Of a DNA stretch of 24,159 bases, positions 15,235 through 19,345 are shown piece by piece. This DNA is from a virus. The stretch lies in IMG/VR virus record IMGVR_UViG_3300043449_000890, positions 1-24,159 of that record; one strand, 5' to 3'. The stretch's first letter is position 1. The number at the start of each line of letters is the position of its first letter. Made by a program: the position numbers and the translations under genes. The notes under the pieces were generated by a model. The model was given only the letters and a program-made list of their open reading frames with translations, was not told the DNA's origin and did no database searches.

Positions 15235-15263
15235 TTGACACTATGCCCTATAGGCCGTAGTAT
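15235..15263 (+). promoter_or_regulatory. Rightward (early) sigma70-type promoter
   Basis: A perfect -35 TTGACA (15235-15240) and a -10 TAGTAT (15258-15263, four of six matches) are separated by exactly 17 bases. The spacer contains the 8-bp palindrome CCTATAGG (15247-15254), which could be an operator overlapping the polymerase site. Transcription would start near 15270 and give a leader of about 35 bases before the first small gene. The strong host-like -35 suits an early promoter read by host polymerase. Confidence 0.7.
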
Positions 15264-15304
15264 TCTCCTATAACTTAATAATCCACTAATGAAAGGGAAA
15301 CGAA

Positions 15305-15358
15305 ATGACCAAGAAATTCACACTTACACCATCAGACTACGAAAGGGTAAGAATATGA
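15305..15358 (+). CDS. 17-residue leader peptide
   Basis: ATG 15305 opens a frame MTKKFTLTPSDYERVRI that stops by overlapping the next ATG (ATGA, 15355-15358). GAAAGGG at 15291-15297 stands 7 bases before the start, the same motif and spacing as at many genes of this operon. Its final codons contain the ribosome-binding site of the next gene, so translation of the leader would open or deliver ribosomes to it. It could instead be a remnant or chance frame, but the well-spaced site favours real translation. Confidence 0.5.
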   Translation: MTKKFTLTPSDYERVRI

Positions 15359-15532: not shown

Positions 15533-15585
15533 ACGCCCCGCAGGGGGCGTCCGACCCGTAAGGCGGGCGCTGACGAGGCCGTCAG
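15533..15585 (+). other. Row of GC-rich stem-loops before the next gene
   Basis: Three hairpins follow each other in the 77-base gap. Stem 1 is ACGCCCC (15533-15539) with GGGGCGT (15544-15550) and a GCAG loop. Stem 2 is CCCG with CGGG across TAAGG near 15554-15566. Stem 3 is CTGACG (15570-15575) with CGTCAG (15580-15585) and an AGGC loop. No U-tract follows, so a terminator is unlikely. They end 5 bases before the GAAAGGG site of the next gene. RNA processing, stability or ribosome-access control are possible. Confidence 0.5.
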
Positions 15586-15602
15586 ATAGAGAAAGGGTAA
15601 AG

Positions 15603-15767
15603 ATGAACACGTTCAAGGAGTTACTACTCCAGGAGATTGAGAACCTGGAGGCGGATAAAGAAGACTACCGCGCAAAATATCCAAACGCTGGAGCAGATGG
15701 CTACATTATGTCCCTCGTAGGTCAAATTGACGGGTTGAAAACGGCGATTCGCTTACTAGGCGCCTAG
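15603..15767 (+). CDS. Hypothetical small helical protein
   Basis: 54 residues, starting MNTFKELLLQEIENLEADKE and ending KTAIRLLGA. The first half is an amphipathic Glu/Leu-rich helix. GAAAGGG at 15591-15597 lies 5 bases before ATG 15603. The stop is inside a perfect 12-bp palindrome, CTAGGCGCCTAG (15756-15767). No family recognised. The gap on either side carries hairpins, unlike the overlapped genes further on. Confidence 0.6.
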   Translation: MNTFKELLLQEIENLEADKEDYRAKYPNAGADGYIMSLVGQIDGLKTAIRLLGA

Positions 15768-15769
15768 CG

Positions 15770-15816
15770 GTTGCCTATCCTTGCCAGGAGAACACCTGGC
15801 AGGGGTAGGGGGCAAC
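15770..15816 (+). other. Long stem-loop between small genes
   Basis: A 47-base region folds on itself: inner stem TGCCAGG (15782-15788) with CCTGGCA (15795-15801) around AGAACA, outer stem GTTGCC (15770-15775) with GGCAAC (15811-15816), and a partly paired middle (CTATCC with GGGTAG). It starts 3 bases after a stop codon and ends 14 bases before the GAAAGGG site of the next gene. No U-run follows. It is the most stable-looking of the intergenic hairpins. Confidence 0.55.
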
Positions 15817-15842
15817 TAGTCCCACTAGAGAAAGGGTACGAG

Positions 15843-16013
15843 ATGACGATAGAAGAGGCAAAGAGGTTGGTCGGTAATCAGGATACGGTAAGCCTACGTA
15901 ATATGAAGAAGGCGCTGGAGTTGCCTATCTCCCGATTTATGAACACGGCGGAAGATTGGCAACGCCTGGAGGCTGTAAAAGTAATTCTGAAGAGTAGAAA
16001 GGGTAAGAAATGA
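15843..16013 (+). CDS. Hypothetical small protein
   Basis: 56 residues: MTIEEAKRLVGNQDTVSLRN, then helices and a basic end KSRKGKK. The start is ATG 15843, with GAAAGGG at 15830-15836 six bases upstream. An earlier TTG at 15771 would be read through the preceding hairpin and is not favoured. Stop overlaps the next ATG (ATGA). No family recognised. Confidence 0.6.
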   Translation: MTIEEAKRLVGNQDTVSLRNMKKALELPISRFMNTAEDWQRLEAVKVILKSRKGKK

Positions 16014-16601: not shown

Positions 16602-16614
16602 TGCTTGACTATCG

Positions 16615-16661
16615 GAGAGGGGCAAGGGTACCCTCTCTGGTAGCCGGATACTAGGCGACCG
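16615..16661 (+). other. Hairpins in the gap before the 116-residue gene
   Basis: GAGAGGG (16615-16621) pairs with CCCTCTC (16631-16637); inside the loop is the palindrome AGGGTACCCT, an alternative pairing. A second, weaker stem joins CTAGG near 16651 with CCTAG near 16663. A TTGACT hexamer lies at 16605-16610, but no -10 stands at the proper distance, so I do not call a promoter. The next gene's GAAAGGG follows at 16673. This repeats the hairpin-then-site layout of the two gaps upstream. Confidence 0.45.
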
Positions 16662-16685
16662 ACCTAGAACGGGAAAGGGTAAATG

Positions 16686-17037: not shown

Positions 17038-17166
17038 ATGGACTGGATACTGGCGATATGGGGAGCGATTACGTTACTCTCAATACTGGGGGCGCTATCG
17101 CTCCTGGATATGGCGGAAGAGTTTCATAAAAGAGGGCTAGAGCGAGTACGAAAGGGGAACAAGTAA
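17038..17166 (+). CDS. Small single-span membrane protein
   Basis: 42 residues: MDWILAIWGAITLLSILGAL, then a polar helix FHKRGLERVRKGNK. One transmembrane segment at about 2-24 with a basic tail, so the tail is probably cytosolic. GAGAGG precedes ATG 17038, one base after the previous stop, and its own stop overlaps the next ATG (TAATG). Function unknown. Confidence 0.55.
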   Translation: MDWILAIWGAITLLSILGALSLLDMAEEFHKRGLERVRKGNK

Positions 17167-17309: not shown

Positions 17310-17419
17310 TGAGTAAGTGTATGAAATGCGGGTGCGCTGTGGACTACACCTCTAGCGCTGACGGCGAGCGCTGGAGTTGCCAGCGCTGTGGACAACCAAC
17401 ATCAGAAAGGGTGGAGTAA
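17309..17419 (+). CDS. Tiny zinc-ribbon-like protein
   Basis: 36 residues: MSKCMKCGCAVDYTSSADGE, then WSCQRCGQP. Two CxxC pairs (C4/C7 and C25/C28) separated by about 17 residues form a rubredoxin-like or zinc-ribbon knuckle. TAATG overlaps on both sides. Its 3' end contains GAAAGGG, the site for the next gene. Such a small ribbon could bind a protein or nucleic acid; role unknown. Confidence 0.55.
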   Translation: MSKCMKCGCAVDYTSSADGERWSCQRCGQPTSERVE

Positions 17420-18727: not shown

Positions 18728-18807
18728 GAGAGGTAGTTATCTGTGCGCTCGTTGCGATAGCAATAGCGTGGTTAATAATGGTGATAGAGGAGAAGATTAA
18801 CAGGTGA
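18724..18807 (+). CDS. 27-residue membrane peptide upstream of lysin
   Basis: MREVVICALVAIAIAWLIMV followed by IEEKINR. Nearly the whole peptide is one hydrophobic helix with a charged end. ATG 18724 overlaps the previous stop (ATGA) and GTG of the lysin gene overlaps its own stop (GTGA). Placed directly before a cell-wall enzyme, it may be a minimal holin or pinholin-like peptide or its regulator. That role is a guess from position and size. Confidence 0.45.
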   Translation: MREVVICALVAIAIAWLIMVIEEKINR

Positions 18808-19250
18808 ACCATAAGCGTAGGCTAGTGCTGGCTACCTTACTGGTACCGGTACTAGCCTTATTCATTCTTCCCCACGCGCAAGAGTGGGAGAGGGCGAAGT
18901 TCGTCCCTCCTAAAGAGATACCTGTAATACAAGCAAAGCACGACACAATGAAGGAGAAGAGGGCTAATGCGAAGATGGCTAAGGCGTACGCTCAGGCTGG
19001 CTTTGGATGGCAAGGGAGCGAGTGGAAATGTTTGCGAACTTTATGGACCTTTGAGAGCAGGTTTGATAGTAAGGCGAACAACCCTCGTAGTAGTGCCTTT
19101 GGTATCGCACAACTACTCAAAGAGACAAGCACCGACCCCGCTATCCAAATCCTTAAAGGATTGCGATACATCAAACATCGTTATTCAAGTCCCTGCCGAG
19201 CGTTGGCAAAGTGGAAGAGGGAGAAGGCAAGAGGTAATCCCTGGTACTAG
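18804..19250 (+). CDS. Membrane-anchored lytic transglycosylase-like lysin
   Basis: 148 residues. Residues 7-23 (LVLATLLVPVLALFILP) form a signal anchor. From about 68 the sequence reads GFGWQGSEWKCLRTLWTFES, then NPRSSAFGIAQ and RYIKHRYSSPCRAL. This W-x-C-L...E-S...NP-x-S-x-AxGI-x-Q...RY-x-SPC layout is that of small goose-lysozyme/SLT-fold enzymes of Actinobacteria, which cleave the peptidoglycan glycan backbone. Glu84 is the likely catalytic acid. GTG 18804 overlaps the previous stop. The anchor makes it a candidate signal-anchor-release endolysin or a virion/host wall-remodelling enzyme. It is the last gene of the rightward operon. Confidence 0.75.
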   Translation: MNHKRRLVLATLLVPVLALFILPHAQEWERAKFVPPKEIPVIQAKHDTMKEKRANAKMAKAYAQAGFGWQGSEWKCLRTLWTFESRFDSKANNPRSSAFGIAQLLKETSTDPAIQILKGLRYIKHRYSSPCRALAKWKREKARGNPWY

Positions 19251-19268
19251 GTTGTGATACACTAAGTG

Positions 19269-19309
19269 TGTAGCGTTGAGCGTATTCTTACCCTTTCCGC
19301 TCCGCTACA
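19269..19309 (+). ncRNA. 3'-UTR stem-loop whose loop is antisense to the early ribosome-binding motif
   Basis: After the lysin stop, TGTAGCG (19269-19275) pairs with CGCTACA (19303-19309), and GAGCG (19278-19282) with CGCTC (19298-19302), leaving a 15-base loop at 19283-19297. The loop reads TATTCTTACCCTTTC. Its complement GAAAGGGTAAGAATA is the ribosome-binding segment of the gene at 15355, and pairing can extend to 17 bases with one G:U (15341-15357). It lies directly before a terminator. It is a candidate 3'-UTR RNA acting on early messages; whether it exists as a stable RNA is not known. Confidence 0.45.
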
Positions 19310-19312
19310 TCT

Positions 19313-19345
19313 AAGCCCCGTCTACCCTTTCGGACGGGGCTTTCT
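19313..19345 (+). terminator. Terminator between convergent operons
   Basis: AAGCCCCGTC (19313-19322) pairs perfectly over 10 bp with GACGGGGCTT (19333-19342), followed by TTTCT-type Ts. The 10-base loop (19323-19332) is TACCCTTTCG, complementary to CGAAAGGGTA at 15340-15349. On the minus strand the stem also follows the FmdB-like stop (19344-19346) at once, so it could end both converging transcripts, although its T-run is poor on that side. Confidence 0.8.

Follow-up and report, generated by a model that had tools for sequence, protein, structure and literature searches.

What is the role of two RNA hairpins that lie directly behind the last gene of a phage operon and carry loops complementary to the ribosome-binding site (RBS) motif of that same operon? 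The locus belongs to the IMG/VR virus record IMGVR_UViG_3300043449_000890, of which positions 1 to 24,159 were analyzed as one stretch of 24,159 nucleotides (the window). The initial annotation, made from the sequence alone, proposed an RNA feedback switch in which the RNA end of the operon silences its own early genes, acts as a free small RNA or mimics the 16S anti-Shine-Dalgarno tail.

The window phage and its plus operon

The window phage is of an actinobacterial type, encoding a WhiB-like gene, a Toprim-domain protein, a DnaB-like ATPase and a sigma-region-4-like protein, and its terminase is nearest to those of ct2KA10 and Streptomyces phages (43-46%). The plus operon of small genes extends from approximately 15289 to an SLT transglycosylase-like gene at 18804-19250 (plus strand), the last gene of the operon (Pfam SLT, 3.8e-4, below the cut-off; PHROG transglycosylase, 1.3e-14). 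A promoter of the form TTGACA-17-TAGTAT is predicted at 15235-15263 on the plus strand by a consensus scan (10/12 matches; a consensus match only). Apart from the SLT gene, the plus-operon products tested are without assigned function in PHROGs. A tblastn search of bacterial genomes with the SLT protein returned no relative, and a nucleotide search of the phage collection gave no match. In the Streptomyces phages Joe and Endor2, the SLT gene likewise lies close to where a series of small genes ends; we suspect this series to be an early operon.

The first genes of the window operon are separated by strong stem-loops at 15546-15571, 15774-15809 and 16609-16643 (8, 15 and 13 pairs, respectively), each immediately 5' of a GAAAGGGTA site, and similar stem-loops are present in L003-L006; these are possibly processing or stability elements.

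Predicted pairing between the terminal hairpins and the RBS motif

Hairpin 1 (19268-19310, plus strand) is predicted by folding and exposes the antisense loop TATTCTTACCCTTTC at 19283-19297, which is kept in relatives. Hairpin 2 (19313-19342, plus strand) is a presumed intrinsic terminator whose loop, ACCCTTTC at 19324-19331, is antisense in the window lineage. For the terminal hairpin region, the predicted folding energy is -37.1 kcal/mol (z = -5.25). Hairpin 2 lies between two convergent gene sets; its U-tract (TTTCTAATT) is short, the terminator scan made no call there, and its termination efficiency is uncertain.

Both pairings that drew attention to the locus are reproduced. Positions 19281-19297 (CGTATTCTTACCCTTTC) pair with 15341-15357 over 17 nt including one G:U, and 19323-19332 (TACCCTTTCG) is the exact complement of 15340-15349 (10/10). 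Among 500 shuffled loops, none equals the observed best duplex energy or the average over the six strongest RBS duplexes, and the opposite-strand genes of the window are poor pairing partners of loop 1. A pattern scan of IMG/VR with TATTCTTACCCTTTC was discarded, as it returned mostly unrelated contigs in a number estimated to be near chance.

The plus strand of the window contains exactly five copies of the 9-mer GAAAGGGTA, each just 5' of a start, and two copies of its antisense, both within the terminal hairpin loops. When one mismatch is allowed, 20 matches are found compared with 5.2 +/- 2.1 in shuffled sequences, and none of 100 shuffles reaches 20. The plus-operon copies, comprising the five exact and several near ones, are located 1-7 nt ahead of the start codon. 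The best predicted target is the site at 15341-15349, ahead of the gene at 15355 (-25.2 kcal/mol with loop 1), followed along the operon by the sites at 15591-15599 (gene at 15603; -15.9 kcal/mol), 15830-15838 (gene at 15843; -18.2 kcal/mol), 15997-16005 (gene at 16010; -19.8 kcal/mol) and 16673-16681 (gene at 16683/16686; -14.3 kcal/mol), all on the plus strand. Pairings of 9-11 bases had been claimed for the sites at 15591, 15830, 15997 and 16673; all four sites are confirmed, and the match at 15997 is longer, with 13 nt to loop 1 (GAAAGGGTAAGAA). Three variant sites on the plus strand also belong to the RBS motif set of the window, namely GAAAGGGAA at 15291-15299 ahead of ATG 15305, GAAAGGGGA at 17150-17158 ahead of ATG 17166 and GAAAGGGTG at 17405-17413 ahead of ATG 17419 (-16.5 with loop 1 and -18.2 with loop 2).

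Conservation of the loop in close relatives

Relatives were located with the SLT gene (18804-19250) as the anchor. The loop of hairpin 1 is unchanged in L002-L006, L020, L116 and L120. Both hairpins are kept in L002-L006 and L020, as are the GAAAGGGTA sites where the operon is present. In L116 and L120, the SLT proteins of which are 68-72% identical, the loop of hairpin 1 is identical and at least six GAAAGGGTA sites are present; the terminator loop differs, and the antisense second loop is lost. The second loop is therefore dispensable. In some other phages, the terminator loop is the only matching one. The argument that two separate loops complementary to one target are hard to explain by chance is weaker than initially assumed. 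In L003-L005, an ORF follows the SLT gene, and the hairpins remain 3' of it.

The loop and the RBS motif change together across phages

In related IMG/VR phages, a hairpin persists at the same operon end with a different loop, and the RBS motif of the operon differs alike. The window represents the class GAAAGGGTA/TACCCTTTC (RBS/loop). L119 combines the RBS GAAAGGACAAG, with GAAAGGACAA(G) at four starts, with the terminal hairpin loop CTTGTCCTTTC, which is the exact complement of its own RBS over 10-12 nt. L025, L282 and L283 carry AAGGGGTA at 5-6 starts and TACCCCTT within the terminator loop. Further classes, found by a scan with the SLT protein alignment, are GAAAGGATAAG/CTTATCCTTTC (11-13 nt; L310, L331, L338, L346 and many others), GAAAGAGAG/CTCTCTTTC (L290, L327, L389 and L408), GAAAGGTAG/CTACCTTTC (L332, L341 and L410, with the full 9-mer at one start each), TGAAGGGA/TCCCTTCA (L292) and CGAAAGGGA/TCCCTTTCG (L301). 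The loci added by a second scan are almost all of the GAAAGGATA class.

Not every phage conforms to this pattern. L297, L343 and L352 have the loop ATACCCTTTCG; the RBSs of L297 and L352 are mostly GAAAGGGAAA, and the loop match there is limited to the GAAAGGG core. The terminal pyrimidine loops of L317, L329, L330, L340, L319 and L117 show no good match to their own RBSs. These exceptions may reflect decay, recent recombination or target genes located beyond the fetched stretch. No such hairpin is found behind the SLT gene of ct2KA10, and in Joe and Endor2 the terminator follows ThyX and has an unrelated loop. L007 was discounted, the pairing of its loop CTCTCT with GAGAGAG being too simple. 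Separately, a near-constant terminator loop ending in CAAGAGTGCTAA is present behind the SLT gene of L292, L294, L295, L301, L327, L329, L412, L415 and L418. It is not antisense to the RBSs, and its constancy suggests another function or a recent spread.

The covariation was assessed in a swap test, for which the loops were picked by position and fold and not by complementarity. With loci that are related by descent and start windows that represent candidate starts, matches of 7 nt to the own operon exceed those to foreign operons in 10 of 11 loop clusters (p = 0.003), and the corresponding values are p = 0.06 at 8 nt and p = 0.008 at 9 nt. At 9 nt, the observed value is 0.032, compared with at most 0.0085 for shuffled loops. 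A 9x9 table of loop class against RBS class over all usable loci, whose classes were named with the loops already in view, is near-diagonal, with the row maximum on the diagonal in seven rows; its diagonal sum is reached by a single one of 362,880 column permutations, the identity. Additionally, loop matches are found in 87 of 1768 own-operon candidate start windows (4.9%) and in 4 of 1757 opposite-strand windows (0.23%), a difference of approximately 20-fold. The loops and RBSs thus change together, the opposite of the freely varying loops that would have spoken against the feedback switch.

These data bear directly on mimicry of the 16S tail. The tail (CCUUUCU) contains a CTTTC- or CCTT-like core. 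All loop classes share such a core, as would be expected if the loop acted on mRNAs generally and its complementarity to the phage RBSs were a mere consequence. However, a fixed tail predicts one loop, whereas the loops vary by phage, following bases that do not pair with 16S, and they avoid the opposite-strand genes of the same phages. What the loops follow is the extension of the RBS (GTAAG, ATAAG, ACAAG or GAG), which is unneeded for 16S pairing. Since the loop bases outside the GAAAGG core are specific to each phage and change with its RBSs, pure 16S mimicry is disfavored, and we regard it as very unlikely; the pattern fits an antisense RNA whose RBS code spans a regulon.

Possible origin of the RNA: a separate promoter or the operon 3' end

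A predicted extended -10 element of the small RNA (TGATACACT, a TGnTAnnnT match) is located at 19255-19263 on the plus strand. The TGnTAnnnT motif stands 5' of the hairpin in 21 of 34 loci, compared with 1.4% of random upstream windows, and TAnnnT is present 9-18 nt 5' of the hairpin in 33 of the 34 (null mean 12%), with close relatives included among these loci. L003 and L119 carry an additional gene behind the SLT gene, and in both the promoter motif and the hairpin are found together 3' of this insert; in L118 and L119, the extended -10 motif lies within the end of the inserted gene and adjoins the hairpin. As a side observation, the gene inserted after the SLT gene in L118, L119, L018, L285, L286 and others bears an SLFAGVGGFD motif and resembles DNA cytosine methyltransferases; where this was checked (L118 and L119), the terminal hairpin and the promoter-like motif are located behind it.

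In the second locus set, the -10-like motif is present in only 10 of 17 loci, often overlapping the stop codon. In L387/L402, the SLT stop codon adjoins the hairpin and leaves no space for a promoter, and therefore a processed 3' end is likelier there. A separate small-RNA promoter is likely in the window lineage and, as judged from sequence, is not universal.

The hairpins could instead act in cis as the 3' UTR of the operon, the mRNA end pairing with RBSs on its own transcript or on a sister transcript to set translation or stability in the absence of a separate small RNA. Their position at the operon end, abutting the SLT stop in L387/L402, agrees with this, and the icaR mRNA provides a proven precedent (PMC3868564). 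Against it, TGnTAnnnT occurs beside the hairpin far above chance and moves with the hairpin upon gene insertion (L003 and L119), and up to eight RBSs over approximately 2 kb are too many for one 3' end in cis. We consider a purely cis-acting 3' UTR improbable, and among the three options first put forward, the extended -10 element favors the free small RNA over the other two in the window lineage.

Stem compensation and the possibility of a DNA site

In 17 related hairpins, two-sided compensatory changes are observed at five of six stem pairs, as counted on hand-aligned arms because the MAFFT alignment shifted the left arms out of register. Since the arms were selected for pairing, this compensation is supportive and not independent proof.

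A stable hairpin with compensatory stem changes and the motif within its loop is difficult to reconcile with a DNA site devoid of an RNA role, whether stoperator-like or the inverted RBS relic of a lost opposite-strand gene. Asymmetric sites that recur close to starts are known from actinophages (start-associated sequences of Cluster K, PMC3203893), and loop 1 in reverse reads GAAAGGGTAAGAATACG, which is near to an RBS and start. However, the spacing of approximately 1-7 nt to the starts is RBS-like, and upon reading of the sequences, no opposite-strand start codon follows the motif in the window, L119 or L025. A DNA site is thus scarcely credible as the explanation of the motif. The apparent antisense loops of L011, L012 and L017 were set aside, as the motif in reverse reads like the RBS and start of opposite-strand genes; L122 and L136 were set aside for suspected opposite-strand RBSs.

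Comparison with known regulatory RNAs

The mechanism itself resembles known antisense RNAs. The statement that no phage system of this design had been described proves too strong: the c4 RNA of phages P1 and P7 is a structured antisense RNA whose complementary segments are thought to be loop-borne (PMC12197685), and like the predicted RNA of the window, it is phage-encoded, with a loop complementary to a phage RBS. c4 blocks translation at the RBS of its one target, the ant mRNA, and has a role in immunity (PMC12197685), whereas several genes of one operon are addressed in the window. Unlike c4, the window RNA lies at an operon 3' end, its loop and RBS diverge together, and it has no Rfam match. 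A search of the terminal region against Rfam gave no match at the gathering score; at E<=10, only weak chance-level matches appeared (asX2, 0.7; anti-hemB, 0.87), and c4 was not among them.

The 6C/B11 RNAs of mycobacteria are similar in being of the actinobacterial type, with two unpaired loops directed to the RBSs of several mRNAs (PMC10470900), the pairing in the window being predicted. In M. abscessus, either loop of B11 alone suffices (PMC10470900). However, 6C/B11 are host-encoded, with fixed poly-C loops and G-rich targets (PMC10470900), whereas the window loops are phage-encoded and phage-specific; TATTCTTACCCTTTC and ACCCTTTC contain at most three consecutive C, short of the poly-C loops of this family, and Rfam gives no match to it.

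Through its 3' UTR, the icaR mRNA of Staphylococcus aureus covers its own Shine-Dalgarno sequence by base pairing, which prevents initiation and creates an RNase III substrate (PMC3868564). The 3' end in the window is likewise complementary to the Shine-Dalgarno sequence of its own operon; icaR is a single gene with a long 3' UTR, whereas here a short hairpin has several RBS targets and, in many phages, likely its own promoter. RsaA and other S. aureus RNAs also pair through a C-rich sequence with mRNA Shine-Dalgarno sequences (PMC3961350), but they serve a bacterial regulon and have no co-evolving phage RBS. The start-associated sequences of Cluster K are similar in being short repeats at the starts of many small actinophage genes, but no antisense RNA is described for them (PMC3203893). 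In L009-L012 and L015-L017, ACTTAAGACAGGAG is repeated 5' of many starts and resembles these start-associated sequences; no antisense hairpin was found in this group.

Phage antisense RNAs are known mostly from a few model phages and usually target single genes. As far as the literature searched extends, a phage RNA that targets the common RBS of a whole operon, and a record of loop/RBS covariation across phages, are new.

A proposed model of the regulon and its implications

We conclude that the region of approximately 19268-19345 is probably a phage small RNA gene (approximately 75 nt) whose antisense product represses a regulon with a common RBS. The gene would consist of the predicted extended -10 promoter, the antisense hairpin and the terminator hairpin, and the RNA may arise from its own promoter, from the operon 3' end or from both. 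By pairing with the RBS common to the leading genes of the operon that precedes it, the RNA loop would keep ribosomes from loading, possibly aided by RNase III cleavage, such that several small gene products are lowered together. The RBS itself may be bipartite: one part, a GAAAGG-like core, would serve the 16S tail, and the other, an extension particular to each phage (GTAAG, ATAAG, ACAAG and others), would address the RNA. We infer the production of the RNA, its pairing in the cell, the repression and its timing; the block of ribosome loading is proposed by analogy with icaR (PMC3868564), B11/6C (PMC10470900) and c4 RNA (PMC12197685). Of the feedback switch proposed at the outset, an operon-end RNA antisense to its own RBSs is upheld by the covariation, and silencing stays a prediction.

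More speculatively, and with some doubt on our part, the regulon may constitute a phage-specific RBS barcode with one silencing cognate RNA, the two drifting together across a broad set of actinophages. Such an RNA might in addition shut down the same operon in a sister phage that enters the cell and shares the code, which would amount to superinfection exclusion by RBS barcode, and leave unrelated phages unaffected. If this is true, each phage holds a private RNA code.

In uncultured actinophages, a family of RNAs seems to control, by way of one common RBS, an entire set of small genes, most of them unknown, and natural compensatory changes are preserved in metagenomes. This would give a reason for the repeated RBS-like motifs in actinophages and would allow unknown genes to be assigned to a common regulon, with matched and mismatched RNA/RBS pairs at hand for probing specificity.
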